A stretch of DNA of 64,000 bases from Nemophila menziesii. Its lineage: Eukaryota > Streptophyta > Magnoliopsida > Boraginales > Hydrophyllaceae. The DNA is taken from the NCBI GenBank assembly GCA_029959085.1, contig JARWIR010000003.1, positions 37,001,505 to 37,065,504 of the forward strand, in the 5' to 3' direction. Shown piece after piece: positions 1,083 to 59,510 of this stretch. The notes beneath the pieces were generated by a model. The model saw only the letters and a program-made list of their open reading frames with translations. It searched no databases and was not told the origin of the DNA. The first letter of the stretch is position 1, and every line of letters starts with the position of its first letter. Position numbers and translations under genes: made by a program.

Positions 1083-2515
1083 TGTTGGCATATTGCCCCC
1101 ATCGATTAGGTGTTTTAATGTGACAAATCCTCTATTGTTTAGTGTGCTAATTTCACTTTATTATCTTGCACTCTAATTCATCAAAAAGCACAATTGACAT
1201 CATTTAGATCAAAGCTTTATTGTTATATCTTATGAAACTAATTCTCATTCAAATACTTTTAACCTTATCTTTGTGTACATTGAGAATTAGCTTTAGTGAT
1301 CAACTACAAAGTTTATTAGAATGATGTTCTCTACAACTCTCGTGAAGAAAGTTTTCTGATCCGAGCATCGTAGTAAAAGATATACTCATTAAAAGGTGTT
1401 TTAGACCTTTGGCGCGGTACACCGGACCTTGGGTGCGGTACACCGCAGATGTGCGGACCAGGGCACGGAGCATGGCTAGCCCCGGACTAGAAAATGAGCA
1501 ATAAGCGAAACTTGGCGCGGTGCACCTCACCAACCCCGCGGTGCACCGCAGATTAGGGTTTCCTGCACAAAATGAAGACAAAAGCAATAGATCCGTTGGG
1601 GATATTAATATATCCGTTGGAGACAAATCATATGACCGTTGGGAGCATTTTGCAGCTATAAATTGAAGGTCTTTCAAGGCTACAAACACACCTTCAACCC
1701 ATATACACTTAGGGGCTTAATTGTTATCATCCAAGAAGGTGTCAAGAGCTTCATAGTTCATATCCACTCAATTAAGGAGTTAATCCAAGGAGCTATCAAA
1801 GTTATTATCTACTCAAAGAGGAGTTTACAAGCTTATAGTCATATCTACTCTTTAGGAGATTATCTAGCAAAGTTGTTTGCACCCCTTTAAACACTTTGTA
1901 TCTATCCTCTTAAGTCTAGGTCTTGTAATAGATAGATTAAGAGAGAATTCAAGTATAGGGAGTATACTTGGTATCCTTGTGTTGAGATAGCATAAGTGTT
2001 TGAGTATCGGGAGTATACTTGGTGTCCTTGTGTTGCGATAGCACAAGTGTTTGTTCTTCGTGTTATCGAAGAGGTTGTAAGGGTTATTGTGTTATCGACC
2101 CGGTTAAGAGAGACACGGGAGCTTAGTGAAAAGCTTGAAATCCTAAGGAGGCTTCCTTAGGTAGTGGATGTAGGGAAACCGAACCACTATAAATCGTGTG
2201 TATCTTTCTATCCCTACTCTATTTACTTTCCGCACTTTATATGTTTGATAATATGCTAGTATGAATATTGTGATATTGATTATCTAGTTTATCTAACATA
2301 TTGTCATCTAGAGTAGTAAGAGATTAGAAACTCGTTTTTACTTGTATCACTTATATATCGAACCTCTTAGCTTATCCATTGTATGATCCCTTAGGAGTTT
2401 GATATATTAGTTGACTTAGAAGTTTCTTTCTTAAACTTATAATTGTCCAAAAGATTTTTTAATTAGGCATTAATCTTATTAGTAATCCTATTCACCCCCC
2501 CCTCTAGGACTTTCA
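1083..2515 (+). repeat. 5' LTR of the LARD-like element
   Basis: 1433 bp, TGTTGGCA to GGACTTTCA. It contains several GCGGTACACCG / GCGGTGCACCGC motifs (1420-1550), a TATA-like CTATAAATTG at 1656-1665, and a 51-bp direct repeat (units starting at 1952 and 2003, core GGGAGTATACTTGGT). Short open frames of 60-129 residues here recur in the other LTR and show no domain. Confidence 0.95.
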
Positions 2516-2517
2516 AT

Positions 2518-2529
2518 TGGTATCAGAGC
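2518..2529 (+). other. Primer-binding site (initiator Met tRNA type)
   Basis: TGGTATCAGAGC lies two bases past the 5' LTR end, the expected place and sequence for minus-strand priming by initiator methionine tRNA in plant LTR elements. Confidence 0.95.
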
Positions 2530-4978
2530 CTAACTCTACGTGAATAGCTTAATCGTTAGTAGAGTAAACGATTTGGAATTTAATCTTTTGGAAGTGTTGT
2601 TTTCTACACAACCTCCATTTTCTTGTAGGTAATCGTTACTTTGCTTGGAGGAAACAAATGGAAGAATTAATATACGAAAGAACGCTCAAATCTCGAAAAA
2701 GGAAAATCCGGTGATTTCTTTTCTTTATCTCGTATATTATATTGCGTTTCCTCCTTATGGCTTGCGTTTTTATTTTTGTTTTGGGTTGTGATTTGATTAG
2801 TTGTGTTTGTTGTTATCATCTTTGGATATTATCTTGTGATTCTTATCATTGTTTTAATGTTATTAGTGTTATTGCATCTAATTCTCATGAATGATGTTTT
2901 TGCACTTTAGCTCTTAGAATTTTGGTAATTGCTTTTTAGTCCCTCAACGATTATAAATTGCACTTTTTATTCTTACAAGTTTTTATATCTTTTTAAAAGT
3001 GCCTATTGATTGATAAAAGGGAAAAAGATCAAAGATATTAGTTTACACTTTCAAATCTTAATTTATCTTTGATCACAAATTTACATTTTCATATGGGTGA
3101 GTTTTTAAAGAAATTGTTTTTCAAAAATATTTTTCCGATAATCGTTTGCATTTTCCATAGCATTTCAAAAATGTTTTATGCATTGTATTATGGGAATTTT
3201 ATCCATTATTGGTCATTAACTCATTTGCATGAATTTGCTTTGCTTACTATCTTTATGATGTGCTTCATTATGTGCTTATATGGTTTATTCCCTATTGTGC
3301 TAATATCTTGTATAACTTGACCTTTTCATGCTTAAAATTGCTTAGTTTTTACATTGGGTCTCTTTGTACTTTTTAGAAAATATAGGGGTATTTATGAAAT
3401 AAACTGCTTTATGTGTTTTTGGGATTTCCACGTTGAATCTTTTCAAAACAAAAGCGTTTTTAGTTGTTTTAAAATTTCTCTATACTATTGGGGAGTTTTC
3501 GTATTAACTTCGGGTGTTTATGCAAATTGCCTATTTTCAAAATCTCTCTTCTTACTCCTTTTGGTCGAGCTTTAGTGCGGTGCACCGCAACAATGGTCCG
3601 GTACACCGCGATTTGGGGTTTATTGTTCTATCTTGCATTATGGTCCCTATTGGTTGAAAATATTGCATTGTGATCCCTATAGGTTGAAAATTTTTGATTT
3701 AAGATCCCTATAGTTTGAACATATTGCATTTAGCTTTCTTATGCTTGAATATTAGACCTTGGTCCCTATTGTCTTGAGAAAGTTACTTAGGTCCTTGAAG
3801 GTTTTCAAAATTGCATTTTGTCCCTAAACATTTGAAAAATGCATTTTGACCCCCATACTTTTCAAAGTTTAAATTTTACCCCTAGATTTCTTAAAATCGG
3901 TTTCAAATTATTCTTATTGGGTGTTTTTAATCTTCATATTATCCTACTTGGTCATTATTGTGGTTGTTTTGGTTTTTTTGGTTGTTTATGCTTTGAATGC
4001 TTATGAATCCATGTTTTGGATATTTAGGATTTCATTGCTACTTGGTTAAAATTGGATGATTGGTTTAAGATGCTATGTGTTTAACTTGGATAATTGGTTA
4101 TGTATGTATTGTTGAATGTTAGTTGCTTAAATTTTATGCTTCGGATATTATTTAAATGTGTTAATGTTGCTAACATTTTCCTTGATGATATAGGTACTAT
4201 TGCATCATTCATCCTTGATCTTATTCTATATTGTTTTATAGTCCCTTTAGTTTGTTCATATTAATCTTTGTTCTTCAAATGGTTGAAAATTGCATTTAGG
4301 TCCCTTGAAGTTTTTCAAAATTACGTTTAGTCCCTAAACTTTTGGAAAATACATCTTGACCCCTTTGCATTTCAAAAATGACAATTTACCCCATGATTTC
4401 TTAAAATTGATTCAAATATTCTTATTGGTAAAAAGGGGAGAAATTATTGGTCAAACTTTTCAAAATTGAAACAAACACTCTATGCATTTCGTGAGGGGGA
4501 GTTTTTAGTAAATTATCTTTAAAAACTAAAATGCTTGATTAATCGTTTGCACTAATCGTTTATCTTATAATTGCACTAATCGTTTGCGTTGTTAGAAAGC
4601 TTATAAGATGAAAACCTATCGATCAAGGAGTTGGTAAAATGTCTCTATCCTTAGCTCTTGCTTTCAAATTATCTATCTTTGTGCATCTCCTTCTAAAAAT
4701 TGTTTTAATCTCTAAACTCTTGCACACTCTTAGAATCGTTGCTTCAAATCTATTCACTTGATTTTTAGCTCTTCTTCCTTAGTTATGAATTACATTTATC
4801 TTGTCTTTTTTATGAAGACAAAGGGGGAGAAATATGTGCACTAAAACTTTCAAAATAATTTGCACTTTACAAAACTCACAAATGCATATCTTTTTCATAA
4901 AAATACACTTTGATTTAATGCTTTTTGTGAGGGGGAGTTAGACTCCATATGTGTTTTAGTGATTGATTTGTCATCATC
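2530..4978 (+). other. Non-coding interior of the LARD-like element
   Basis: No retroviral-type protein domain in any frame. It has two modules of similar make-up (about 3640-3900 and 4240-4400), each a string of GTCCCTAT..TTGAAAA..TTGCATTT phrases, and several GGGGGAG runs (4434, 4496, 4815, 4931) like the true polypurine tract. This suggests decay and partial duplication of the 3' interior of a parental element. Confidence 0.75.
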
Positions 4979-4992
4979 AAAAAGGGGGAGAT
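4979..4992 (+). other. Polypurine tract
   Basis: AAAAAGGGGGAGAT directly before the TG of the 3' LTR; the expected primer for plus-strand synthesis. Confidence 0.9.
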
Positions 4993-6424
4993 TGTTGGCA
5001 TATTGCCCCCATCGATTAGGTGTTTTAATGTGACAAATCCTCTATTGTTTAGTGTGCTAATTTCACTTTATTATCTTGCACTCTAATTCATCAAAAAGCA
5101 CAATTGACATCATTTAGATCAAAGCTTTATTGTTATATCTTATGAAACTAATTCTCATTCAAATACTTTTAACCTTATCTTTGTGTACATTGAGAATTAG
5201 CTTTAGTGATCAACTACAAAGTTTATTAGAATGACGTTCTCTACAACTCTCGTGAAGAAAGTTTTCTGATCCGAGCATCGTAGTAAAAGATATACTCATT
5301 AAAAGGTGTTTTAGACCTTTGGCGCGGTACACCGGACCTTGGGTGCGGTACACCGCAGATGTGCGGACCAGGGCACGGAGCATGGCTAGCCCCGGACTAG
5401 AAAATGAGCAATAAGCGAAACTTGGCGCGGTGCACCTCACCAACCCCGCGGTGCACCGCAGATTAGGGTTTCCTGCACAAAATGAAGACAAAAGCAATAG
5501 ATCCGTTGGGGATATTAATATATCCGTTGGAGACAAATCATATGACCGTTGGGAGCATTTTGCAGCTATAAATTGAAGGTCTTTCAAGGCTACAAACACA
5601 CCTTCAACCCATATACACTTAGGGGCTTAATTGTTATCATCCAAGAAGGTGTCAAGAGCTTCATAGTTCATATCCACTCAATTAAGGAGTTAATCCAAGG
5701 AGCTATCAAAGTTATTATCTACTCAAAGAGGAGTTTACAAGCTTATAGTCATATCTACTCTTTAGGAGATTATCTAGCAAAGTTGTTTGCACCCCTTTAA
5801 ACACTTTGTATCTATCCTCTTAAGTCTAGGTCTTGTAATAGATAGATTAAGAGAGAATTCAAGTATAGGGAGTATACTTGGTATCCTTGTGTTGAGATAG
5901 CATAAGTGTTTGAGTATCGGGAGTATACTTGGTGTCCTTGTGTTGCGATAGCACAAGTGTTTGTTCTTCGTGTTATCGAAGAGGTTGTAAGGGTTATTGT
6001 GTTCTCGACCCGGTTAAGAGAGACACGGGAGCTTAGTGAAAAGCTTGAAATCCTAAGGAGGCTTCCTTAGGTAGTGGATGTAGGGAAACCGAACCACTAT
6101 AAATCGTGTGTATCTTTCTATCCCTACTCTATTTACTTTCCGCACTTTATATGTTTGATAATATGCTAGTATGAATATTGTGATATTGATTATCTAGTTT
6201 ATCTAACATATTGTCATCTAGAGTAGTAAGAGATTAGAAACTCGTTTTTACTTGTATCACTTATATATCGAACCTCTTAGCTTATCCATTGTATGATCCC
6301 TTAGGAGTTTGATATATTAGTTGACTTAGAAGTTTCTTTCTTAAACTTATAATTGTCCAAAAGATTTTTTAATTAGGCATTAATCTTATTAGTAATCCTA
6401 TTCACCCCCCCTCTAGGACTTTCA
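4993..6424 (+). repeat. 3' LTR of the LARD-like element
   Basis: 1432 bp, nearly identical to 1083-2515, followed directly by the AAAAG target copy. Confidence 0.95.
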
Positions 6425-7977
6425 AAAAGATAATCGAACCACAACCGCAAGTGTACGGTTGTCCCAAGTAGTATATCTGAAAATACAGATTTGTTCCAAG
6501 GACGGAATGGTTGATCACAATGTCTAGCAAATAGTGATTGATGCACTTATGAAAATAAAAAGACAATAATATGTTTGTTTGGTTTTGTATTAATCCTAAG
6601 GAATGAAAGACTAATGCGAAAATGTAAATAAATAACTAAGACGCAAGAAATTAAAAGTGATACGCAAGTAAGAGCAGGTAGTACTTGAGAGACGCAAGGG
6701 TTTACCTAACTATCATTCATTTCATACATTGTTTAAGGGACAAATCGGTAAATTTGTATTGGTCGGGATTCTATAATCTCCTTACCCCCGTCAGGGTGGA
6801 CTAAGGAGCAACTCTCAAATGCTACAAACCCCGTCAGGGTGATTATAGTCCACTCTCAAGTGTTTAAGTTCAAATTACCCAATAGGCCATAGGTTTAATT
6901 AAGCTCGTCAGAGTCAATAATTTCTAACCTACATTCATTAACTAGTTCGGAACCTAAACCCCCCGTCAAGGTGATCCAATCGCCACTAATTGGAATAGCT
7001 TAGATACTAAGTCCTATCATTGATTGATCAGGTCAAAAATAGTAGATAAAGTGTAAATTAAAGAAAAATACAATTCACCCAATTTGATTTAAATAATAAT
7101 AATCCCAAATCCAAATGTATAAAACGAAATCAAATTGGGATTAACCCATTATGCGTTTTCAAGCACTAATTTAGTTTAGCTCATAATAATTGAAAAGATA
7201 AAAACTAAAGAAACAAATAGGTTCATCATGTTTTACAGAATAAAATAGAAGAACCTAATTACGGAATTGAATTGGCTGAGAAGTGGAGATATAGACCGTC
7301 TCCAGCTCTTGCTTCTTCTCTTCCTGCCTCTAGCTTCTTCTCTGGTGTCTGACTCTTAAGCGTATGTTGTATTATGAAAAAGATATGAAGAGTGTGTGAA
7401 AATAGAGGTCTAAAGCCCTTTTATAATGTTAAAAACGGATTAGGGCTTGGACCTAATAATAAAACATTAATTAAATGTCCAAGCCCAAATTCTAAGCCCA
7501 AAATCCCGTAACTGCTGATACACCTTCACTAAAACGGCTTTTCCCGATGCGTTATGACTCCGATTGACCTCATTCCAGTTGCTAAAGTTCCGTAACTCGA
7601 TAAGGAATGTTTTCTCTTCAAAGGTCAGCGGCTAAATCATCTCTTAAGCACCACGAAATCAGAAATCTATAGCCTGGAAAATGGATTTTCAGCTCTAAAA
7701 ATAATATCTTCGGGATTTATCTTCAAGTCTTGACTCTATATCACGATCTTTGACTTTCTCCTTGGATTCATCTTCTAGCTAACATCTAAAACCTGTAAAA
7801 TCTTCACTAAAAATACCAATATTACGCGCAAAAGCTTAATAAATAAAAAATGCTAGAAATAAAAGAGGAAAATCATATTATTGCATATTAGCACCAAAAG
7901 TCTATCTAAATAGTCAAATAAACACCAAAAATGATGTCTCCTAAGGGTCGAAAATAAGAACAATTAAAGAGACATCA

Positions 7978-10324: not shown

Positions 10325-10427
10325 GAGGAAAATCATATTATTGCATATTAGCACCAAAAGTCTACCTAAATAGTCAAATAAACACCAAAAATGATGTCTC
10401 CTAAGGGTCGAAAATAAGAACAATTAA
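10325..10427 (-). repeat. 103-bp copy of LTR positions 7865-7967
   Basis: Matches 7865-7967 with one base different (TCTACC versus TCTATC). It ends in AA, where it fuses to the copia copy. It represents the first part of the LTR on the complement, lacking its first 10 bases, and is all that is left of a 5' LTR or a templated patch. Confidence 0.9.
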
Positions 10428-11076
10428 GGAAAGAAGAGGCCTTGTCATGGAGTTGATTTTATGTATCGAAGAACACATTGGGAAGCATTCCAATGATTCT
10501 TTGATGGTTTAGAGAGAAATTGACTAAGGCAATTAACAGAGTATGACAAGTCGGGACGAGTGATAGTTAAATAGAGTAAGCGTCCTATCAATCGTCGATA
10601 TGATGATGGATTATCCATCAAATCAGCATCATCTTGGCGCAACTTTAGTGTAGATTCCACAGGGAAAGCAACAGGTTTTGATTCAATTAAACCACATTTA
10701 TCAAGAATATCAAGAGCAAACTTGCGTTGAGATAACAAAATACCAGTAGAATTGCGTGCAACATCAATGCCTAAGAAGTATTTAAGCTCACCCAGATCTT
10801 TGATTATGAATTCGCTATAAAGAAAAGCTTTAAGATTTCAAATTTCAGTAAAGGAGTTACTAGCTAGAATAATGGCATCGACATATACGAGAAGAGAAAT
10901 GAAAGAGGTAGAATCTCGTTTAATAAAGAGACTAAAATCACTATCTGAGTGATTGAAACCATAAGATATCAAAGCAGATGAAAGTTTAGCAAACCATTAT
11001 CGTGAAGCTTGTTTTAAACCATACAAACTCTTAGTCAACTTACACACAGCATTGGGAGGGGCATTAATACCATGAG
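10426..11076 (-). repeat. 651-bp direct copy of copia positions 394-1044
   Basis: Same length as 394-1044 with one base change (534 C versus 10566 T), including the shared YVDA mutation and stop codon. Here copia continues without a break through ATGAG into 11077, whereas the left copy is interrupted at ATGAG by the LTR. Confidence 0.95.
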
Positions 11077-11419
11077 GTATGGCCATAAAAACTTCTTCAT
11101 TCAATTCCCCATGGAGAAAAGCATTGTTGACATCAAGTTGATGAAGATGCCATTTATGTATAGAGGATAAAGCAATAATAAACCGGTTTGAAACAAGTTT
11201 TGCAACAGGTGGAGGAATGTCAAAAAAATCAAGTCCTTCCTGTTGATTATAGTCCTTAGCTACTAAGCGTGATTTGTGTCTTTCTAGAGTTCCAACTGAC
11301 TTGTATTTAAGTTTTAACACCCACTTACATCCTATGGGTTTGATGTTAGGTGTTAATGGAACAATTTTCCATGTATTGGTGTCTTCTAAAGCTGGTAGTT
11401 CATGTTGTATAGCAGCCAT
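10426..11419 (-). pseudogene. Ty1/copia reverse transcriptase
   Basis: The complement of 10997-11419 encodes the RT start: WKIVPLTPN, GCKWVLKLKYK, RLVAKDYNQ, HQLDVNNAFLHG and LYGLKQASR, followed by stop TAA (10997-10999) and the rest of the palm with YVDA in place of YVDD (10874-10885). RVT_2-type RT of a Ty1/copia element. It cannot be active. Confidence 0.95.
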
Positions 11420-11929
11420 CTAGTCAGTGATAAGAAGCTTGTGTATAAGTCTTGGGCTTAGTATGGAAGCAATGAAAGAAGCATAGTTTGAGGAAACCCT
11501 TTTAGTACCAAGAAAATAATTTTATAGGATATAGAATTTTAGTGATAGGGGATGAATCATGTGTGGGAGAAGAGGATGGATTACAAAAATATGTAGAGTG
11601 GCAAATGTAGTCTTTTAGGTAGGTGGGTGGTTGTCTTGTTCTAGTGGATTTGTATGGTTGATTGGGTGGATTTGGGTGGTTGTTGGTTGACAGAATAGGT
11701 GTGTGTTTTGTAGTATGTTTTGAGTATGGAGTGGAAGAAGGAGGAAATTGCAAGGTGTGTATTTTAGTAGGTGGAGTAGTGTTAGAAAAGGGAAATATAG
11801 TTTCATGGAAAACTACATTTCTTCAGATTAAAGTAATGTTGTTAGAAATATCAAGAAGTTTGTAACCTTTGGTTTCCATGGGGAATCTTAGAAATATACA
11901 CTTGATAGCCCTAGAATCAAACTTTAATC

Positions 11930-12445
11930 TGTTGTTTTTTATGTAAAATCATAGCATAGTGATCCAAAAACACTTAAATGACTCAGAACTTGGAGGTTTC
12001 TTGTATAGAATTTGGTATAGAAAAAGGTTGTTGAGTAGAAGAGTAGGAAGGCGGTTTATCAAGTGTTTAGCTGTTAAAATTGATTCAAACCAAAACTGAA
12101 AAGGAAGATTTGCCTGGAACGTCAAGGCTCTAGCAGTAGTCAAAAGGTGTTGGTGATTTTTCTCAACTAGCCCAATTTGTTGAGGTGTCTCAACATAACT
12201 TAATTGATGAACTATACCATAGGTTGAGCAAAATTCAATAAAGTGAAATTAGGATCATTATCAGATCTTAGAGTCTTGATTTTGATATTGAACTGAGTAA
12301 GAATCATCTGATAAAAGGTGAGTAATTGGCTATGCACTTCAGATTTATTGTGCATCAAATATATCCATGTAAACATAGAGAAATCGTCAACAATGGTTAA
12401 TAAGTATCTATGACCCGAGTATGATTCTTGTTTTAAAGGACCCAA
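11930..12445 (-). pseudogene. Ty1/copia integrase core
   Basis: On the complement 12212-12445 has the first catalytic Asp (LTIVDDFSMFTWIYL) and the second (RSDNDPNF). After a frame change near 12220-12235, ETPQQIGLVEKNHQHLL carries the third catalytic residue, Glu. 11949-12143 continues with TARALTFQANLP..FW..LTAKHLINRLPT. At least one frameshift and stops break it. The stretch 11420-11930 is the poorly conserved part between integrase and RT and shows only short Pro/Thr/His-rich frames. Confidence 0.9.
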
Positions 12446-12508
12446 AATATCACAGTGAATTAGTTCAAAACAAGAAGAGGTACAAATCTGAGAAATAGGA
12501 AAAACAAG

Positions 12509-13162
12509 TCATTTTTGTTTGGCAAAATGACATGAATCACACACATTAGATTTTGAGAAACTAATTAGAGAATCTAAAGACTTGAGTGCATCTAACTTGG
12601 ATTTTGAAGGATGTCCAAGTCTTGAATGGCACAAATCAAAACTCTTAGCAGCAGTTCTGAGAGATGTATGTGTTGAAGTGGATGATTGTAAGTAGTATAA
12701 GCCATGAAGTTCATATACAATCCCAATCATCTTTTGTAATTTCTGATCCCGTAGCATACAATAAGATAGGAGAAAGACAACACATACAACTGAGTCGTTA
12801 GTAAGTTTTGAAATTGAAAGCAAATTATATTTCAAAATATGTTGATTTAAACATATAATTCCTTTTTGTGTAGCAGAAACCACATCACCATTAGGTAGTG
12901 TTACAAGAATATCAACATTACTAGAATTACTAGTATAAAGAGAGTGGTTATATATAAGGTGATCAGTTTCACATGTGTCAAGAATCCAAGAAGTTTTGTT
13001 ATGATTACCTTCTTGAGTAGAAATTTGATGAACTGCAGAAGTATTTGTAGGTGTAGTTGTTGAATAAGTATGAGCTAAGGACATCAGTTTTCCAATCTCC
13101 TCAAGTGTGAAGTCATGTAAACTCAATGACTTAGACTCTTGAGCATTAGATTCTTGCACCAT
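12509..13162 (-). pseudogene. Ty1/copia protease and GAG-pre-integrase region
   Basis: 217-residue open stretch on the complement. The protease box reads WILDTCETDH where WILDTGATDH is usual, so the catalytic DTG is lost. Further on, HSRLGHPS and CDSCHFAKQK match the HHCC zinc-binding GAG-pre-integrase domain. Confidence 0.9.
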
Positions 13163-21577: not shown

Positions 21578-21682
21578 TTTGCGAAAAATCATATGACTGA
21601 ATCTTATCTAATCAAATTCCAATATAATAAAATAATTAGAAGTTTGGTATAATTTGACTGCGACAACAAGAATCGTTATTTC

Positions 21683-21731
21683 ATTCGGGTGCTTTGCACC
21701 CTTCCTTTGTCCAAAAAAAAAAAAAAAAAAA
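21683..21731 (+). mobile_element. Tiny poly(A) retroposon (49 bp) with 18-bp target duplication
   Basis: ATTCGGGTGCTTTGCACCC, then CTTCCTTTGTCC and about 20 A. It is flanked by the 18-bp direct repeat AACAAGAATCGTTATTTC at 21665-21682 and 21732-21749. This is the mark of target-primed reverse transcription: a 5'-truncated SINE/LINE tail. GGGTGCTTTGCACCC can form a hairpin. Confidence 0.88.
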
Positions 21732-21793
21732 AACAAGAATCGTTATTTCTTTAACTTCTAAAAATATGGATGAATCATTACTCATAATATAAA

Positions 21794-21891
21794 CCCATAC
21801 TTATATTAACCGAAAATATGAATATTACAAATCTTACTTGGTCAAAATATCTTTGTTTAAGGTCGATGGGACTCTGGTAGTTAGAAAACTT
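21794..21891. repeat. 98-bp direct repeat, copy 2
   Basis: See 21479-21577; the two copies bracket the 49-bp retroposon. Confidence 0.92.
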
Positions 21892-21924
21892 CGGACTAAT
21901 TTTTTACTTTTTTTTTTTTTTTTA

Positions 21925-22105
21925 GAATAATGATATATACTACTCAAATTCATACTACCCAAATATCACCTAATAACGTGGCGTGGATTGGTTGGTTACA
22001 AATCGTTAATGTATTTATTTTCTTGATTTGATTAAAGATTTGTAACCAAGCAATTCATATCATATATTTGGGTGGTATGAATTTGGGTGGTATAAATCAT
22101 TACTC
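21925..22105 (+). mobile_element. MITE, about 180 bp (family copy 2)
   Basis: Starts GAATAATGATATATACTACTC and ends GGTATAAATCATTACTC in inverted form; shares GTGGCGTGGATTGGTTG with 14578-14766. Flanked by TTTTTTTTA on both sides, which could be a 9-bp target copy, but the sequence is low complexity. Confidence 0.75.
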
Positions 22106-22241
22106 TTTTTTTTAATACATGAGAAAGCCACTTTGGACTCACTTTGGACTCGAAGTAAATGACTCCAATAAAATATTCGATTCCAAAACCTCTTGGTCTC
22201 TGCGAAGTAACCTAACCACTAGACCAACTATCGATCTCACC

Positions 22242-23050
22242 TAGGGGTGGAAATCGGAAGGAACGGATCGGAAAAATGGTATTTCGGAAAAATTCCAATT
22301 TTTTTCGGAATAGATTTTTTCTGTTCCAATTCCTATCTAATTTTTCGGAACTGGGAAAAACAATTCCTAATTCGGAATTTCGGAATTTACAGGAAATTCA
22401 GAAATTTTGGCACGGAAATTTCGGAACTTTGGGTTCGGAAAATTCGGAACTTTGGGTCGGAAATTCGGAACTTTTGGTTCGGAAATTGCGGAACTAAGGG
22501 TTATAAATCGAACAGTACTTTAAAACTTACACGATGAGTAACAGTAGTAAAAAACTAAACTTATAAAACTTACACGAAGAGTAACAATAGTTAAAAGATA
22601 AAGTTAAAATTTACTTACATGAAGTAACAAAATAAAAAAACAATACTAAACCGATGTTACTTTTCCAATAACATGAAAAAACAAATATTACAAAAATGCC
22701 TCGGAAAATGATTCTGCAATATTACATGTCTCAAGGACCAAAGAAACAGGCCATCGATTTTCATTTTTCAAATACTCCATGCAATATTATTTTGAAATAT
22801 AATTTATAATTCGGTAATATAATTCGGAAAAATAAAATCGGATCGGAAATATAATTCGGAAATAAAATCGGATCGGAAAACCCGGAAATTTCGGAAATTT
22901 ATATGTAGTTCCAATTCCTATCCGATTTTTTCGGAAAAATCGGAAATCGGAATTTTGGAATTTCGGAACCTTAAAAATCTATTCCGAAATCGGAATTTTC
23001 GGATCGGAAAAGTCGGAAATTGGAAATTTCGGATCCGATTTCCACCCCTA
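22242..23050 (+). mobile_element. Non-autonomous hAT-type element, 809 bp
   Basis: Terminal inverted repeat TAGGGGTGGAAATCGG, exact at both ends, with a perfect 8-bp target duplication ATCTCACC (22234-22241 and 23051-23058), as expected for hAT transposons. No transposase frame. Subterminal regions are dense in CGGAAATTCGGAA-type motifs in both orientations, likely transposase-binding repeats. The centre (22505-22630) has three loose copies of AAAACTTACACGA.GAGTAAC. Confidence 0.95.
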
Positions 23051-23058
23051 ATCTCACC

Positions 23059-24317
23059 TAATTTTTCACTTGAGATATACATAAGCAAGTTTATATTCCC
23101 GTGAAAACAAACCAAAATGAAAATAAAAATTAAAGCATTTTCCTCATTAATATTATCAATATATCATTCATTCACAATTAAACTTTATAAATTTTATAAA
23201 CCAGTTCTCGGTCCAAAAAAAGTAACTCTAAAGACCATTAATTTCTAACAATTTCATCTCTCAACTTGTAGAATTTCCCATATGCTTTAAATATCCCTGC
23301 TCAAAATACTAGTGGCTGATTCAGCTTTGCTAAAAAGATAATAAACTTAGAATCTTGTTAGCTTTTAGACTCAACCCATCCAATTGACAACTTGAGGTAA
23401 TCACTCTCTTCAGCCCATCAACCCATGCTACTTCAGACGATACAATATCATCAACCTCTTCACATTTCTCACAAACAACACATGGTTTATGTGCGAAATC
23501 TGCCAAAGAAATCTTCAAAATTGGTGGCAGAATTTTTTCTTTTATCTAACACCATAGTTGAAAGTTTTGTGACAAATCCACCTGTTGGCGTGCTAGTCGT
23601 GATAAAATGCTTACCTTGGTAGATACCTATTACATCCAGAAATTAACAATTAAATGATCAAGTTTCAAAAGAATATCTAAATTTTTATTTTATATTTTCA
23701 ATTAATAACCATTGTTAACTTTGACGTTAATAATTACGTGACGATTGCGTTATGTCTTTCGTTTGATACCCAAATATTTCTACATAAGGTATTAAAATAT
23801 AAAACAAATATTCTAAAATTAATCTAGAGATAATTACATATATTCATAACTTATCGAAACTTTTTTTAATGATTCTATAAAAGTTAAAAATATAACTAAA
23901 TTCCATAAAATATGGTTATTTGTTACACATTATACCAACTTAATTAGAATTAACTAAATTTCACAAAATATGGTTATGTGTTACACATTATACATATTTT
24001 TTTAATTTTGTTTTAAATTTTTTTATTTCATAACATTCTATATAATACAATATATATGAACTAAAAAAAATATTTCGACAACCCAGTTATCGAAATGTTT
24101 TTAACCAGTTGAGATTAGTTCACTGGTCAGGGTCTTGATTATTCAATCTAGTAGTGCAAGTTCAAACCAAGTCAATGACTCCGAATCCAAAGTGGTTCTC
24201 CTATATAACAAAAAAAATGTCTTTTTAGTTTGTTTTAAATTTTTTTATTTCAAATCTATTTAATATAATAAATATATTAATTAAAATTATTTTGACAACT
24301 AGATGTCGAAATGTATA
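23059..24317. other. Intergenic, no gene recognised
   Basis: AT-rich. The phrase ATGGTTATKTGTTACACATTATAC occurs twice (23910-23935 and 23970-23992). No protein domain. Confidence 0.5.
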
Positions 24318-43048: not shown

Positions 43049-43880
43049 TCATTTCCTATTCTTCTTCTGCTGTGAACTCTTAGGTAAAATACTCTGTTCC
43101 TCTGGGTGCCCGTTACACTTAATTTGATTCTCACGACATTCTTTTGAGCAAAATGCACAAAAATCCCTGCATTACATTCTCATATTCACTTCTCTCATAA
43201 TAAAACAATAGTACTTATTTCTCATTATATACAAATTGGAAACAGTAAGAGCTTTGAGTAGCATTACTAAATTGAATCGATATATAAACATTGTTGCAAT
43301 ATCAGGTTCCACAATTACTATACCGTTAACCCAAGCTTATACACTTACCGTAATTATAGTCTAATTTGGCCTAAATATTTTACAATTATGGCATGAAAAT
43401 CTCTTAAAACTATAATTCTGACATTATTATAATTCTCAAATAAAACCACTCACTCAACCGACAAAATTAACATGAAAATTAATTTATAATATTAGAAAAA
43501 GAGACATGTTAAATTGTAATGCAGAAATTAAACATATATATGTTATCACGGTGAATCGATTATATAAAATAAGTTAAATTACAGATAAATAGCAAAACGT
43601 CGTCGTTAAAAGAACAGTATATTGTGAGTGTGTCGGAGTGATACCTGTACATAAAAATTTCAGAGCTCGGTGGAATTTTCTTGCCACAGTAGTGACACGT
43701 GTCAAGAAATCCAGCAATCGGTGGAGGAGTTGGAGCGATCAAAGCCTCGGGAGAGAGACGCAAAGACTTATTCGGATTGTTTGGCAGGTTCGCCGGAGCT
43801 GCAGAAGGAAGTAGCGTCGGTGAATCAGCCTCAAATATGGTGGAGCCGTCGCAGACACGTAATCGCTTAGGAGTCGACAT
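43049..43880 (-). CDS. FCS-like zinc finger (FLZ, DUF581) protein
   Basis: Two exons on the complement: 43645-43880 (236 nt) and 43049-43166 (118 nt), joined by a GT-AG intron that splits an Arg codon. The product is 117 aa. The C-terminal half is the FLZ domain: GFLDTCHYCGKKI (57-69), IFMYR (75-79) and FCSKECR (84-90), with Cys62, Cys65, Cys85 and Cys89 as zinc ligands, followed by a basic tail. FLZ proteins are plant-specific and many bind SnRK1 kinase subunits as adaptors in energy and stress signalling; that role is inferred from the family. The start is the first ATG; the upstream GTG is not needed. The intron position inside the domain (after MYR) is usual for the family. The gene looks intact. 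Confidence 0.9.
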
Positions 43881-44026
43881 TAGAATCACCTAGGGTTTTA
43901 CGGAAGAGTGTAGAAACTAGAAAGAGAGTAAAACAAGAAGTTTATGGTCAAAAGAGAGTAGAAGTCGGGTCCGTACACGAAAGAGTAGCAGAGAGAAGGG
44001 AAGGAAGCGGCTAGAAGGAGGCAAGC

Positions 44027-44036
44027 TATTTATAGG
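44027..44036 (-). promoter_or_regulatory. TATA box of the FLZ gene
   Basis: The complement reads CCTATAAATAG about 150 bp upstream of the ATG. The Pack-MULE begins only about 250 bp further out. Confidence 0.7.
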
Positions 44037-44544
44037 CTAGCTTTGGGCCCATATATGCTTTTTGGACTCTGACAAAAGTAACCAGGTTTATATTTGTTTA
44101 GTGCCACATCACGTTAATTTCTGTAGTGACTAAGGATTATATTTTGGATAATTAATAATTATTTTTCCTTCTAAATTGTTCTTCCTATTATATATTTGGA
44201 CCAAAATACTTTAATAATTTCTTTTAAATAAAATGAGAAAAATAATTAAATCCTTCTTTTTCTTATTCTCATCAAATATTATATTGGGATAATGCCCATT
44301 TAAATCATGATTCATATTGTTTATTCCCAAATATTGACAGGTGAATATTTCTTCCCAAATAAATTAGACAGTTTCCTATTTAAATCAAATTCACATTGCA
44401 CAATTACGTTGTTACCCTCCAGTCAAAATCAGCTTTTTTTATTCTCGTAGCCGACGGTATAAAGCCCCGTCTCTCTCATTTTCTTAATTAATTTTAAAAC
44501 CCAGTTTCTATGAAGCAGATTCGTTTAAATCGAACAGGTTCAGG

Positions 44545-45015
44545 GTTTCACCATTTGGAGATACAACTTTTACAAAGGTGTTTGTTGGAGGACTTGCTTG
44601 GGAAACTCAAAGTGAGACTATGAGACGGTATTTCAAGCAGTTCGGTGAGATCCTTGAAGCTGTTGTCATCACCGATAAGAACACCGGCCGATCCAAAGGC
44701 TATGGTTTTGTTAGTCTCTTTTCCATTTAATTTCCTCTCTATTTTTCATTATAAATTCGTGAAAAAGATTCTGCCTTTTTCTCTGTTTCTTATTCAAATA
44801 CTTTCATTTATTGTAATTCGTATCTTATGATCAATGATAGTTTTGGAGCTAATTCATATAATCATTTCTTTATACTATAATTAATAACTTGATTAATTTG
44901 ATTGTAAATGTTGTTTTGTCGAGGGTTTAGGTGACTTTCCGGGATCCTGATTTGCTAGAAGAGCATGTGCTGATTCAACTCCAATTATTGATGGTAGACG
45001 AGCCAACGAGTAAAA
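44545..45015 (+). pseudogene. Captured RRM RNA-binding protein fragment
   Basis: [35 protein letters not shown] and GRSKGYGF encode RNP2 and RNP1 of an RRM. A GT-AG intron (44710-44930) follows and the next exon gives VTFRDP. The frame is then broken by small indels; the shifted frame reads RRACADSTPIIDGRRAN, the usual end of plant RBM24-like RRMs. Intron phase 0 is as expected. Non-functional. Confidence 0.88.
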
Positions 45016-45125
45016 TCACAGAATTGGTTAACAAGGTAGATGAACCACGAGAAGTGAGTCTTATTACCTTATAACCATTCACCTGTTTGTTAAAACACCT
45101 CAATGAGAAAACTTCTCTATTAAAG

Positions 45126-45243
45126 GGAAAAACACGTGCTGATATGACAGTTGAGGAAGGAATTAGTGCAGCTGATCGAAGAAAAATGAACGGGAATGCT
45201 TTATTTCAAGAGGAAAAACTGAATGAAGCTATGCTAGAGTATA
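45126..45243 (+). pseudogene. Captured FKBP42/TWISTED DWARF1-like fragment (exon a)
   Basis: GKTRADMTVEEGISAADRRK then MNGNALFQEEKLNEAMLEY closely matches the start of the TPR region of the plant immunophilin FKBP42 (TWD1). It begins at a splice acceptor (TTAAAG at 45120-45125). The preceding short stretch 45015-45053 ends in a GTGAGT donor and is not assigned. Confidence 0.85.
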
Positions 45244-45245
45244 GT

Positions 45246-46086
45246 TGGGTTAATAACTAATGATTTGCCTAAACAAACGTTGGAATTTTATTCCAACATG
45301 CGAATGGTTCATGGGATTGTTCCTGATAAATATACTTTCCCATGTGTGATTAAGGCTTGTTTTAATGGTGTAGAGGTGTAAAAGATTTATGCGTCGGTGT
45401 TTAAACTTAGGTTGGATTCAGATTTGTTTATAGGTAGTGTGTTTGTGATTGGTTATTTAAATTTTGGATTAGTGGTGGATGCGTTAAAGGTGTTTGATGA
45501 ATTACCTGGTAGAAACGATGTAGTTCTTTGGAATGCGTTAATAATTGGGTTTTCACATATTCGTAAGTTTGATAAATCTATAGAGGTTTTCAGGAGTATG
45601 ATTGAAACTGGGGTTATACCAAGTAGATTTATCGTTACTGGTATTTTATCGGTTTTGGGTATTGTGGAGGATTTCTATAATGGATGGGTGATGCATTGTT
45701 TTGCGATAAAGATGGGCTATGATTCAGGAGTTCAAATTTTGAATGCATTGATTGATATGTATGGAAAATGCAAGTGTGTACACAAGGCATTAAATATTTT
45801 TTAAGAGATGAATGAGATGGATATATTTTCTTGGAACTCGATTATTTGCGTTTTTGAACAATGTGGGTATCATGAACGGAGTTTGAAGCTTTTTCAGCGG
45901 ATGTTATTTGACGGTGTTATGCGTGATTTAATTACAATTACTAGTGTTCTTCCTGCTTGTGCTCGTTTAGCTGATTTGATGCATGGTAAAGAGATTCATG
46001 GTTATATGATTATTAATGGATGGGTAGGAAATAGTGATTCTAGAATATATAATGATACGTTTATCGAAAATTCTGTAATGGACTAA
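45246..46086 (+). pseudogene. Captured pentatricopeptide repeat (PPR) protein fragment
   Basis: Reads as consecutive PPR motifs of the PLS class: FYSNMR, GIVPDKYTFPCVIKAC, ALKVFDELPGRNDVVLWNAL, IEVFRSMIETGVIP, ILNALIDMYGKC, DIFSWNSIICVFEQ, LKLFQRMLFDGV and ACARLADLMHGKEIHGY. In-frame stops at 45379-45381 and 45802-45804 and abrupt ends make it non-functional. It separates two pieces of the FKBP42-like gene. Confidence 0.9.
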
Positions 46087-46549
46087 AAATGTAAATATAA
46101 TTTGCTGAATTTTTAGTAAAGTTCAATTAACTAGTAGCTCTATGTTATTTTTTTTTTCTGATAAAATGTTAATTTCTTTTTAACTTAGATTTCATCTTTA
46201 TAATTTGTATTAAGTTTTAGATGATTAATGATTATTAGTTGGATGAACTAAGATTGGATAAATGATTGATAATTCTAATTAAATTTTAGATGATTAACTA
46301 TCTTAGATGATTAACGTAGCTTTCTTCTATATGTAACATTTATTAGATTTAAATTATCCTCTTTCAACTTTGGAGTATGAAGAATTTGGGAATTCTCATA
46401 TACAATCCGATTTTGAATAATATCATGAAGTATTTTCTGTATGATAATATTCCACAAGGTGTTTGTTGCCCTGCTATGATCCTAACCACCTCATTTAATG
46501 ACACCAGGTACATGCATGCAAAATGTGAAAGTATGAAGGAAGCGAATAT

Positions 46550-46640
46550 ATAATGACAAGTGAAGAATCCTTGTCATTTTAACATGGCTGATTGTTTAAT
46601 TAAGCTTAAACGTTACGATGAAGCTATAGCACAAATGTAG
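46550..46640 (+). pseudogene. Captured FKBP42/TWD1-like fragment (exon b)
   Basis: VKNPCHFNMADCLIKLKRYD then EAIAQ matches a later TPR stretch of FKBP42/TWD1, which in the source protein lies some 30 residues after the piece at 45126-45243. So the PPR fragment sits where an intron and exon of the source gene should be. Confidence 0.85.
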
Positions 46641-46785
46641 CATTGTATGTATAGTTTGTAAAGACGGAAAGCTTTAAATTGCAAAAAATCTTTTTAACAA
46701 CCTATTATCTAAGCACTTCAAACACTGTTTTAATAGTTTATCATTAAAGCACTTCAAACTTAAGTTTTCAGTGAAGAAACAAATC

Positions 46786-47036
46786 CCATCTTAAATTGAA
46801 AATAGAGATGGGACAAACCAGATATGGGACAAATCCCATCTTAAATTTGTACCTCGCGAAACAGCACATCACCATCTCCAACACATTATACCTTTAATTA
46901 ATTTTATAACAGAGATGGGATAAATCCCATCTTAGTTAAACAATAGAGATGGGACAAATCCCATCTCAGTATTAGAATGGAGATGAAACAAATTCATCCC
47001 AATCTTAAAATTAGAGATGGGACAAATCCCATTTGT
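46786..47036. repeat. Palindromic GATGGGACAAATCCCATC repeat block
   Basis: About six loose copies of GAGATGGGACAAATCCCATC within the Pack-MULE. Each unit is nearly self-complementary (GATGGGA..TCCCATC), so single strands could form hairpins. Confidence 0.85.
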
Positions 47037-47224
47037 AAAAAAAAGTTTAAAAGAAAACCAAAAAAACAAAAATTTAAAAAAAATCGAAAAAAATCATAGT
47101 CGTAAATATTAATATGTCTCGTCCAAAAATGCATTTGTTTTATTTTTTTTATTTTTTTAGAATTAGTTATGACGATTTTAAAAAAATTTCACGGACGCGC
47201 GCGTGATGGAATTAGTAGTAGTAG

Positions 47225-47424
47225 TAGGTGGTAGGGGTGGGGGTGGGGGTGGTGGGATGGGGGGTGGTGGGTGGGGGTGGGGTGGTGGTGGTGGGGGTGG
47301 TGGGGGTGGGGGTGGGGGGTGGTGAGTGGGGGTGGGGGTGGGGTGGTGGTGGGGGGTGGGGGTGGGGGTGGGGTGGTGGGGGGTGGTGGTGGGGGGTGGG
47401 GGTGGGTGGGGGTGGGGGGTGATG
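47225..47424. repeat. GGTGGGGGT minisatellite (G-rich)
   Basis: 200 bp of almost pure G and T on the plus strand (GGTGGGGGTGGGG units), with many runs of three or more G; G-quadruplex capable. It gives a Gly/Val/Trp open frame that is not a gene. Confidence 0.95.
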
Positions 47425-47614
47425 GTTTTTAATTAATGTTTTTTATTATTTAAAAATATAGATGAACTTTCATGTTTAGATAATGTTTGATTTAAATGGG
47501 AATAACAACTACAATAAGGGTATTTTTGTAATGTTTGAACCTAAAATATTGTATAATCTAAATGGGAAGGTAGTTTGTTATTTTGATTTAAGAGGGCATT
47601 GACCCTATTATATT

Positions 47615-56907: not shown

Positions 56908-58059
56908 TCAATTTAAGATATCATATGCCTTTTGAAGATCAAAATTAATGGTATTTCTTGAGGAGATATTACCTTTATCATAACCACTTAAGATATCTTG
57001 TGCAACCATAATTTTGTCACCAATATACCTATCACATACAAAGGCAACTTGATTGTAAGAAATGAGAGAGTTGAGAACCTTTTTAATTCTATTAGTAATG
57101 ATCCTTGAAAGTGTCTTGTAAGGTGTATTCACACAAGAGATAGGCCTGAATTGCCTTTCATTAGTAGGTGTCTGAACTTTAGGAATAAGGGAGATGTTTG
57201 TGGGATTAGCCTCCTTGAGCATAGTATTACTCTCCATTGTATCTTTAACTGCTTTACAAAAGTCATCACCTACAATTCCCCATGCCTTTATATAGAAGAA
57301 AGAAGTGAAGCCATTTGGCCTAGGACACTTAGACTCATCAATTGAGAACAAAGTAGCTTTAATTTCATTATTTGTGATAGGCTGACTCAACCACTTCACT
57401 TGTTCCTTAGTAAGAGTTACATTCATAAGTTCTTTAAGTGTATTTACAGAGAAAACCTCTTGAGAAGAGTCCTCAGATCCAATAAGTTTAGTATAAAACC
57501 CCAAAAATTCCTCCTTAATCTGGCTAGGAGCTGTCAATACATTTCCATTATCATCCACTAATGTGCACACCTTATTCCTTGCTTGTCTAGCTTTGATGAT
57601 TTTGTAGTAGTAAGATGAACTACAATCACTATTTATTGACCATGTATCTCTAGCTTTTTGCTTCAAAATATCTTCTTCATATAACATAACTTTTTCAAGA
57701 TTAGTCAGAGCAATCTTCTCCTCAGCTAAGATAAAATCTATCCTGTTACCACTCATAATAACATTATGCAATTCCTCAAGCTTCATCCTCAGTTGATTAA
57801 TATAATGAGGAGTTTTCTTAAAGTACTTAAGGTTAAATGATTTCAAAGCCTTCTTAACTGACCTTTGTTTGGTGTACAATATAAAAATACTCGAGCCTTG
57901 AACTTGGACACTCCAAGCTTTCTTTACAATGTCCTGAAATTCCATATGCTCAGTCCAAATGTTAAAGAATTTAAAGGAACACAGACCTCTTTTGTGTGGT
58001 GCACTAATTGAGATTAGTAATGCACAATGATCCGAGGTAGAAAGAGAAAGGCTAAGCAC
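56908..58059 (-). pseudogene. LINE ORF2, RT first half
   Basis: 383 residues open on the complement. SDHCALLIS closes the endonuclease. Then SKCPRPNGFTSFFY, ISLIPKV, RQFRPISCVNTPYKTLSRII and FDLQKAYDILN, the RT fingers and first catalytic Asp motif. Bounded by an in-frame stop TAA at 58063-58065 and a stop after FDLQKAYDILN (about 56908). Confidence 0.92.
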
Positions 58060-58062
58060 ATT

Positions 58063-58701
58063 TTACTGCACTTGACCCAACCATCTAGCATTTATAAGAA
58101 CTCTATCAATTCTACTTGCTCTAAGTTGTATTGCAATTTTATTTGTCCAAGTGAAGAAATTACCACAAGTTTGGTGTTCAAAAAGTTCTGCATCTTCCAA
58201 ACACTCTATGATTTGTTTTGAACATTCATCTAATTCCTCACAATTTAATCTTTCCTCAATTCTTAAAATCTCATTATAGTCACCCACACAACATAGATGC
58301 TCACTCTTACATAGATTTCTCCACCTAATCATATCTCTACAAAGCACTATTCTCATATTATCATCATTATTTGCAGACACAACACAGAGAATAAACTTAC
58401 TATTGTTTGATAAGTCCATAACCTCAACAAGTATGGCCTGCACTGTAATTTCAATGAGCTTAACTGAAACCCCATCTTGTCTCCATAAAATCCATACTCT
58501 ACCCTTATGATCATTAATATAGTTATGAATTATGATATATTTATTAAATTTTTCTTTCACTATACTCTGCATATTATGGAACTGAACCTTAGTCTCCATA
58601 AGACACATAATCTGAACCTTCTTTTTAAACATGAAATTTGAGACATCTAATTTTCCCAGGGCCATGTTTAAGTCCCTTACATTCCATGACCCTAAGATCA
58701 T
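58063..58701 (-). pseudogene. LINE ORF2, apurinic endonuclease domain
   Basis: Starts MILGSWNVRDLN; METK carries the metal-binding Glu; VGDYNEIL, FTWTN and SRIDRVLIN are further exonuclease-endonuclease-phosphatase motifs. The final SDH lies just beyond the single TAA. Usually GDFN; here GDYN. Confidence 0.92.
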
Positions 58702-59510
58702 GGATCAGGAGGTTTAGTCTTATCACCCCCTTTTTCACTCTGAATAATCTTCAAAATATCATTATCAAGTGCATATAGAGGGCTATTAAGTACATTAAAT
58801 GAATTCATATTAGCTTCAAGAGAGTTGTAACTACATTCAACTTCATTTTGAACTTTAGATCCTCTAGTTACATGATTCCAAGCTTCCTCACTATTTCCTT
58901 GTGAATTTATAATTCTTTCGTCATCTTTCACCTTATTTTTGCTATTAATATTAGCATTTACAGGAGTAGAACCATTAGTTTTATCCTGTTTCTGAACAAA
59001 CACCTTATTCTCCTTCTTACAAGTTTTATGTTCAAAAATCTTGCAAGTAGAACATTGCACTGGCTTCCAATCATAATCAGTATCAAACTCATGAAGCTCT
59101 TTGTTTCTTGTATCCACATAAACTTTCTCAACAAGCTTTTTGTTCAGATTGACCTCTACACAAACACGTGCATAACACAACCTTGACCTTGACTCGGTAA
59201 TAGAGTCCATCTGAATCGGCTTCCCCACTCCACTAGCAATGTAACTAAAACCATTTCGAGTACACAAGTTCATAGGAATGTTCTTAAATTTGATCCATAA
59301 AGGCACACTATTATAATCAACCTTACCAAATTGCATATTTGGACTCCACTCTCTCAGAAACAGAGATTTCCCTCCAACATGCCAGATCTGTTCAAGTGCC
59401 TTTCTACATTTAATATCACTAGCAAAGATAAAGATGAACATATTTCCGTGTGATTTAATGTTCACCCTTCTGAATTCCTTCCATTGATATCTAACAAAGT
59501 TAGTAATCAT
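58698..59510 (-). pseudogene. LINE ORF1, DUF4283-type and zinc knuckle
   Basis: On the complement, 270 residues: a DUF4283-like domain (FIFIFASDIKCRKALEQ, WSPNMQF, VPLWIKFKNIPMNLCT) and a zinc knuckle CSTCKIFEHKTC, which is two residues short between His and Cys compared with CCHC knuckles. Its beginning is separated from 59538-59900 by a stop or frame change near 59510-59540. The end overlaps ORF2 by ATGA. Confidence 0.88.

Follow-up and report, generated by a model that had tools for sequence, protein, structure and literature searches.

The window analysed here is a stretch of 64,000 nucleotides from Nemophila menziesii (NCBI GenBank assembly GCA_029959085.1, contig JARWIR010000003.1, positions 37,001,505 to 37,065,504 of the forward strand), and it holds, upstream of an FLZ gene, a mobile element bearing host gene fragments at positions 44286-47605. 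A first-pass annotation made from the letters of the window had read this element as a Pack-MULE, with exactly these limits, a perfect 9-bp target site duplication and inverted ends. The presence of a gene-fragment-bearing mobile element is confirmed: the element is 3320 bp long, its limits are exact, and identical copies of TATTATATT flank it. We classify it as a non-autonomous Mutator-like element (MULE) of the Pack-MULE kind with short terminal inverted repeats (TIRs). The following features have been found at its ends.

44277-44285: left target site duplication TATTATATT, identical to 47606-47614
44286-44307, + strand: left TIR GGGATAATGCCCATTTAAATCA, matching the right end at 18 of 22 positions
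44293-44389, + strand: left subterminal repeats of TTCCCATTTAAATCAAA, at 44293 and 44373 (three or fewer mismatches) and at 44352 (four)
47486-47598, - strand: right subterminal repeats of TTCCCATTTAAATCAAA, at 47486, 47552 and 47582
47584-47605, - strand: right TIR, reading inward GGGTCAATGCCCTCTTAAATCA
47606-47614: right target site duplication TATTATATT, identical to 44277-44285

Because the inverted repeats are confined to the tips, where 18 of the outermost 22 bp match against 53 of 130 in an ungapped comparison over 130 bp, the element is of the short-TIR type. The left TIR is the same or nearly the same in 17 listed related elements. Beyond the tips of about 22 bp, the two ends resemble each other mainly through inward-pointing copies of TTCCCATTTAAATCAAA, a 17-mer derived from the element's own right end and counted on both strands of the 64 kb. 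With three or fewer mismatches, six copies were found, five of which lie within the outer 130 bp of the ends and all of these point inward. Since 70 copies appear once five mismatches are permitted (six of these in the ends), only the close copies are distinctive; they are possible binding sites for a transposase.

For comparison with chance, exact 9-bp repeat pairs with inverted ends matching at 10 or more of 12 positions and a spacing of 300-10,000 bp were counted in the window and in 40 Markov resamples of it. Three such pairs were present in the real window, against a resample mean of 0.6 and a maximum of 2, and no pair in the 40 resamples had GGG at both ends. One of the three is the element itself and another falls in a pair of long terminal repeats (LTRs). 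Since no ATG-initiated open reading frame (ORF) of 100 or more amino acids (aa) is present within 44286-47605, the element has no transposase of its own and is non-autonomous.

The perfect 9-bp duplication characteristic of MULEs accompanies the window copy and 18 of the 19 relatives scanned, and between the ends lie, as in Pack-MULEs, fragments of host genes with four donors in the same genome. Helitrons have 5'-TC and 3'-CTRR ends and no target site duplication; a Helitron was therefore dropped as an explanation, the present ends beginning with GGG and being flanked by the duplication. A processed retrogene was dropped because the introns of two pieces are still present.

Captured gene pieces and their donors

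The interior of the element is arranged as follows (L and C numbers are our handles for genomic loci and contigs).

44537-45007, + strand: RBM24/ARP1-like RRM fragment, consisting of the 5' exon part, an intron (44710-44930, 221 bp) and a portion of the exon that follows; its frame is shifted in the window copy
45008-45039, + strand: 31-bp patch of a coiled-coil gene, reading SKITELVNKV; its last base is common to the TWD1 piece
45039-45242, + strand: TWD1/FKBP42 fragment A, covering residues from about 163 to 203 of AtFKBP42, plus an intron at about 45054-45125
45240-46083, + strand: PPR fragment of the At3g14730 kind, with two in-frame stops and no frameshift
46084-46509: AT-rich insert of 426 bp splitting the PPR fragment
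46510-46547, + strand: continuation of the PPR fragment (YAKCGSMKEA region), 89% identical to L017:3843-3880
46548-46558: filler of about 11 bp at the join of PPR and TWD1 fragment B, matching neither donor
46559-46651, + strand: TWD1/FKBP42 fragment B, covering residues 228-251 of AtFKBP42 and the first part of the following intron
46660-46760, + strand: tentative fifth gene fragment with a P-class PPR motif, degraded in the window and better kept in L010 and L039

Searches for donors and copies covered the host genome of 1.517 Gb in 361 contigs, and donors of the RRM, coiled-coil, PPR and TWD1 pieces were located at C68:4.08 Mb, C200:42.98 Mb, C329:20.32 Mb and C329:54.96 Mb, respectively. 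The RRM and TWD1 pieces have been captured at the DNA level, carrying over introns of their donors. The first-pass annotation had proposed three donor genes (RRM, TWD1 and PPR) in a single orientation. Each of the three was found and all pieces are on the + strand, but the count has to be raised to at least four, the coiled-coil piece having been overlooked.

The RRM piece, predicted to include an intron, matches C68:4083691-4084142 at 92.9% identity with the same intron, whose GT...AG splice signals are retained; proteins of this type bear the names RNA-binding protein 24 or ARP1. Differences between the window copy and the donor number 7/162, 12/211 and 3/77 in exon 1, the intron and exon 2, respectively. 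The coiled-coil donor is a 640-aa ORF on C200, 5.9 Mb from the window, and its match (C200:42975031-42975079) is 86% over 49 bp with a genome-wide E value of 1.6e-6. Of the 31 bases of the patch, 30 are identical to the donor in L015 and L016 and 29 in the window copy, L009 and L010.

The pieces described earlier as FKBP42/TWD1-like exons do match AtFKBP42. Fragment A corresponds to C329:54960604-54960807(-) at 87%, and the donor appears in two stretches, 4798-5001 and 5150-5241 of the reversed locus L037, with the 148 bp between them absent from the element. A protein search for TWD1 gave no match (7 candidates, none with E <= 0.001), and the name was assigned from PDB comparison and genome matches. 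The PPR piece is nested in the TWD1 piece and takes the place of these 148 bp. It is of the At3g14730 kind, and the placement given earlier has been corrected: it lies between the TWD1 halves and is split by the 426-bp insert. Its donor, C329:20323334-20324177, is 90.2% identical and lies within a 604-codon open frame of the At3g14730 kind, the protein of which is 66% identical to that of Lithospermum erythrorhizon and 64% to that of Nicotiana attenuata. The PPR piece falls beside Lithospermum erythrorhizon, with a FastTree local support of 0.988, in a tree built from the 107 orthologue-like sequences among 120 listed proteins. These results point to an asterid host, possibly of Boraginales.

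The frame of the extant PPR gene (L017:2636-4447) ends where the usual C-terminal tail would begin, ahead of the stop in the seven relatives compared, and this gene may itself be shortened. Just upstream of it, a long fold-back inverted repeat (L017:713-2498, 82% self-complementary) possibly belongs to another MULE family. The P-class PPR piece is tentatively regarded as a fifth captured gene; the version in L010 is similar to designed PPR proteins (E 3.2e-10), no Pfam family matched it, and its donor was not sought.

Copies of the family and exchange of parts

At least 71 matches to the element exist in the genome, a lower bound since 40 of 3104 candidates were scored. Twenty loci were fetched first, comprising 18 element relatives and two donor genes, and L039 was fetched later. 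TIR-like tips with a perfect 9-bp duplication were found in 17 of the 18 element loci and also in L039, whose ends were scanned at three instead of two mismatches; no such tips with a duplication were seen in the fetched stretch of L026. The duplication of L025, TTTTTTTTA, is of low complexity. All duplications differ between copies except TTATTTTAT, common to L010 and L039, and the flanks of these two share only a 34-bp match in opposite orientation. This recurrence of the ends and duplication in other copies, together with donors lying elsewhere, supports the Pack-MULE reading of the first-pass annotation.

The PPR piece is common to nine elements, the window copy included, and the full mosaic is present in four copies (window, L009, L015 and L016), without colinear flanks and with different duplications. 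L009 is a window-like copy, 96.9% identical over 3158 columns. A second form, without the 426-bp insert and a G/T array described below, is represented by L015 and L016, whose identity to the window copy falls from 93% in the leftmost 1.8 kb to 89% in the following 0.7 kb and 75% at the right end. Over 2654 bp, these two share 99.74% identity at unrelated sites with different duplications; the mosaic thus moved recently. The right part from element position 1018 is kept in L011-L014 with a different left part, and no Pfam family scored above the cut-off for a 204-aa ORF of L011. Eight relatives (L019-L024, L027 and L028) have only the ends and the right module in common with the element, as does L025, less closely. 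When flanks of 700 bp on each side were compared among nine copies, 1 of 36 pairs matched, over 95 bp and in opposite orientation; because colinear flanks are lacking, the copies represent separate insertions. The elements have thus transposed as units, with the gene fragments inside them.

A one-step segmental duplication, or a rearranged pseudogene block in which the MULE ends are incidental, would account for the single orientation of the pieces and for the presence of both the PPR and TWD1 donors on contig C329. However, the donors do not lie side by side anywhere: they are spread over three contigs, and 34.6 Mb separates the pair on C329. Moreover, nine elements hold parts of the block without colinear flanks, each with the ends and a 9-bp duplication. 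The nesting of the PPR piece in TWD1, at the cost of 148 bp, excludes a simple segmental duplication, and the donor positions and the ends common to copies refute this explanation, to which we give next to no probability.

The joins between RRM and coiled-coil pieces and between coiled-coil and TWD1 pieces overlap by about 0-1 bp, and the trinucleotide TAT is common to both sides of the join of TWD1 fragment A and PPR. No donor splice site appears to coincide with a join. Among 12 elements examined, the three left joins recur with 0-2 mismatches in all five elements reaching that region, and the join of PPR and TWD1 fragment B likewise in all nine PPR-bearing elements. Since the internal joins recur across copies, the mosaic most likely arose once. 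The 426-bp insert is common to L009 and, judging from continuous matches, to L010-L014. The PPR piece of L015 is uninterrupted at this point and represents the empty site, and the insertion is therefore later than the capture. Neither recognisable ends nor a convincing duplication were seen at its borders, and a 66-aa frame in and over it (46353-46550) matched no Pfam family.

The right part of the element contains two repeat arrays.

46763-47036, + strand: repeats at 34-bp spacing containing the palindrome GATGGGACAAATCCCATC; they belong to the right-end module of the family, which is found in many relatives
47224-47435, + strand: G/T-rich array of the GGGGGTGG type, differing in length between copies

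Since the G/T array ranges from absent in L015 and L016 to more than 600 bp in L014, it expands and contracts rapidly. By eye, it has G-quadruplex potential.

One copy, L010, is a recombinant of two Pack-MULEs. Its left part corresponds to positions 1-1515 of an L039-like Pack-MULE (95.2% overall, and 149 of the final 151 bases) and its right part to a window-type element from about position 665, with an overlap at the join of ATTT, or of ATTTG when the window's own module version is used (4-5 bp). This structure gives good evidence that Pack-MULEs in the family exchange captured cargo. L039 (C200:83581504-83585223, element at 1175-3220 of the reversed strand) is a 2046-bp relative of the left parent type. 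It has two exon-like pieces of one gene, possibly akin to a T-complex 11-type protein, in addition to the P-class PPR piece.

Two further loci were noted among the relatives. L025 (C24:35061073-35065773, element at 51-2701) carries pieces resembling starch synthase 4 and plastid fructose-bisphosphate aldolase and is another two-gene Pack-MULE. A 288-bp stretch at L016:5986-6273, with similar GGG tips and the 9-bp duplication TTTTTATTA, is a possible miniature relative.

Differences in the PPR piece at first, second and third codon positions number 11/12/12 between the window copy and L015 and 3/7/1 between the window copy and L009, with no third-position excess. The first PPR stop is present in all nine copies and the second in seven of nine, and both RRM and TWD1 carry frameshifts in the window copy. 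Since the copy-to-copy changes look neutral, a protein role, and thus an encoded protein, is unlikely. The mosaic would otherwise be a working chimeric gene retaining protein function, and the retained splice signals, a PPR frame open save for two stops and the small number of departures from conserved columns are compatible with such a gene. The frameshifts, the first stop in every copy and the distribution of changes over codon positions speak against it, and we judge it very improbable.

Assembly history and source genes

We consider it very probable that a short-TIR, non-autonomous Pack-MULE acquired its cargo by DNA copying and transposed as a mosaic, the copies of which then exchanged parts. 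A Mutator-type transposase would have been supplied in trans, and breaks inside an ancestral element would have been filled from host genes via short template switches. We infer an order in which the TWD1 piece was acquired together with its introns, 148 bp of it were replaced by the PPR piece later or simultaneously, and the coiled-coil patch and the intron-bearing RRM piece were added to its left; the number of capture steps is likewise inferred. The completed mosaic then transposed and its copies traded parts, as in L010; the window copy was inserted on the upstream side of the FLZ TATA box, about 0.25 kb away. Its pieces look like neutral DNA today, and any effect on FLZ would come via promoter distance or silencing. 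Gap filling of this kind has been modelled for animal Pack-TIR elements (PMC8277862).

An alternative described in PMC8903248 is that elements which had landed on both sides of genes moved jointly as one larger element, later trimmed, with no gap filling. The fold-back repeat upstream of the PPR gene, which contains part of the right-end module, reaches to about 0.2 kb from the first ATG, and a copy bearing the left end of the family is found about 1.6 kb away from the coiled-coil match; both are leads for this alternative rather than tests of it. On the other hand, the 31-bp patch and the replacement of 148 bp of TWD1 by PPR are hard to obtain by trimming, and around the RRM and TWD1 donors the fetched stretches match the element only in the captured part. 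We hold joint mobilisation to be unlikely.

Several observations weigh against the capture of cargo by a short-TIR Pack-MULE as set out above. No transposase source could be tied to these ends, none being present among the families in the eight pieces scanned, and an autonomous partner was not searched for. The TIRs are short; those of MULEs usually exceed 100 bp, and most Pack-MULE surveys are based on long-TIR MULEs. The joins show no more than 0-5 bp of microhomology, and about 11 bp of sequence at one of them matches neither donor, because of which template switching is plausible rather than demonstrated. An empty site for the window insertion was not encountered, the flank 43400-44276 occurring only once in the genome (1 match, 1 candidate) and thus offering no unoccupied paralogue for comparison. 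At three cut-offs for conserved columns, the PPR piece departs at 1/28, 3/50 and 16/96, stops aside, and the highest working orthologue at 1/29, 4/53 and 20/101. Its protein-level decay thus seems slight, which we read as a recent release from selection; the two stops are compatible with a divergence from about 1-2% to more than 20%, a range too loose for use as an age.

The last of these observations concerns the fit to the extant donors. Fixed differences between the extant PPR gene and all nine copies number 11, 6 and 36 at first, second and third codon positions (of 251, 249 and 251, respectively), an excess at the third over the first and second positions with P 1.8e-7, and the third-position rate of 36/251 exceeds that of the RRM intron stem, 9/210, with P 2.4e-4. 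This excess is at odds with direct capture of the extant gene, and the captured PPR copy therefore probably diverged from its C329 counterpart at a time when both were coding. The extant PPR gene looks like a close relative rather than the exact source, and the same is perhaps true of the extant TWD1 gene, where exon stem differences appear by eye to be largely synonymous.

The source genes may accordingly have been paralogues or homoeologues since lost, the plain reading for PPR, or genes of a related lineage received through hybridisation or horizontal transfer, the bold one. The codon-position pattern of PPR and the appearance of the TWD1 exons favour such sources. However, the RRM piece seems to fit its extant gene well, with fixed differences of 3/161 in exon 1, 0/76 in exon 2 and 9/210 in the intron. 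The supposed sources were not seen either, with one non-element match for PPR (40 of 3104 candidates scored) and one for TWD1 (8 of 8 scored), and a fast synonymous rate in the PPR and TWD1 donors would be an alternative. On balance we regard other sources as doubtful, while still giving them real weight. In its boldest form, the TWD1-PPR core would have been built from genes foreign to the host lineage, whether of a subgenome since lost, of a hybrid parent or of a horizontal donor. It would have entered the genome as a Pack-MULE, and would then have acquired an RRM piece locally and exchanged halves with Pack-MULEs already resident there. This is improbable as a complete history; if true, exchange between elements would contribute as much as new captures to the growth of multi-gene loads in the family.

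The first-pass annotation had called multi-gene capture uncommon in eudicots, which needs qualification because Pack-MULEs and multi-locus capture are already known there. In the literature cited here, 220 and 46 Pack-MULEs are counted in tomato and Arabidopsis, respectively (PMC3310237), and 1,447 in sacred lotus (PMC4053705), and multi-locus cargo is reported for rice Pack-MULEs and Arabidopsis Pack-CACTA elements (PMC8903248), the latter having CACTA ends in place of the Mutator ends found here. With the Pack-MULEs of rice, maize, Arabidopsis, tomato and lotus, the present element shares MULE ends, the 9-bp duplication, the lack of a long transposase ORF, host fragments and multi-locus mosaics. 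It differs in a 22-bp TIR with a subterminal repeat array, in four identified donors with nesting, and in copies that recombine; its 3.3 kb also exceed the tomato peak of 1.0-1.2 kb (PMC3310237). MULEs without long TIRs exist, and the Arabidopsis KAONASHI-type and grapevine Mutavine-6 elements described in PMC2528002 are alike in having 9-bp duplications without long TIRs and in eudicot gene transduplication, whereas here no ULP1 gene or transposase was recognised in the scanned pieces and the load is multi-genic. The animal Pack-TIR elements with their gap-filling and FoSTeST models (PMC8277862) are similar in foreign sequence within TIRs, in joins with microhomology or filler and in single and multicopy forms; ours is a plant element with several fillers per element and a two-element recombinant.

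The new aspect is the completeness of the record. The mechanism of gene uptake by Pack-MULEs is still debated, and one genome keeps extant donor relatives, exact joins, forms with and without a later insertion, four mosaic copies, two of them sisters at 99.7% identity, and a recombinant, from which the assembly history is largely readable. This record makes gap filling and neighbouring insertion testable locus by locus in a eudicot.

FLZ neighbour and window context

The neighbouring gene is represented by the following feature.

43563-43880, - strand: first exon of the FLZ gene, with its ATG at 43880 (zf-FLZ, E 1.3e-7)

The TATA box TATAAATA of this gene lies at 44027-44034, 243 bp from the duplication of the element, and the distance of 397 bp from the ATG to the duplication agrees with the value of about 0.4 kb given earlier. 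The position of the element suggests a possible role in FLZ control. A multi-gene element 0.25 kb upstream of a TATA box offers a natural assay of whether FLZ expression is altered or small RNAs act back on the four donors.

Other repeats were also noted in the window. Direct repeats of 1.43 kb at 1083-2516 and 4993-6425, 99.8% identical, resemble LTRs from a very young retrotransposon, and a further pair at 394-1044 and 10426-11076, also 99.8% identical, suggests nested insertions around it. A candidate element with the 9-bp duplication TAATTAGAA and inverted ends GTTTGGTATAAT matching at 10 of 12 positions is present at 21633-23949. Remains of a LINE-like element (reverse transcriptase, endonuclease and DUF4283) and of a Copia-type element are found at 56911-59510 and 10997-13162, respectively.

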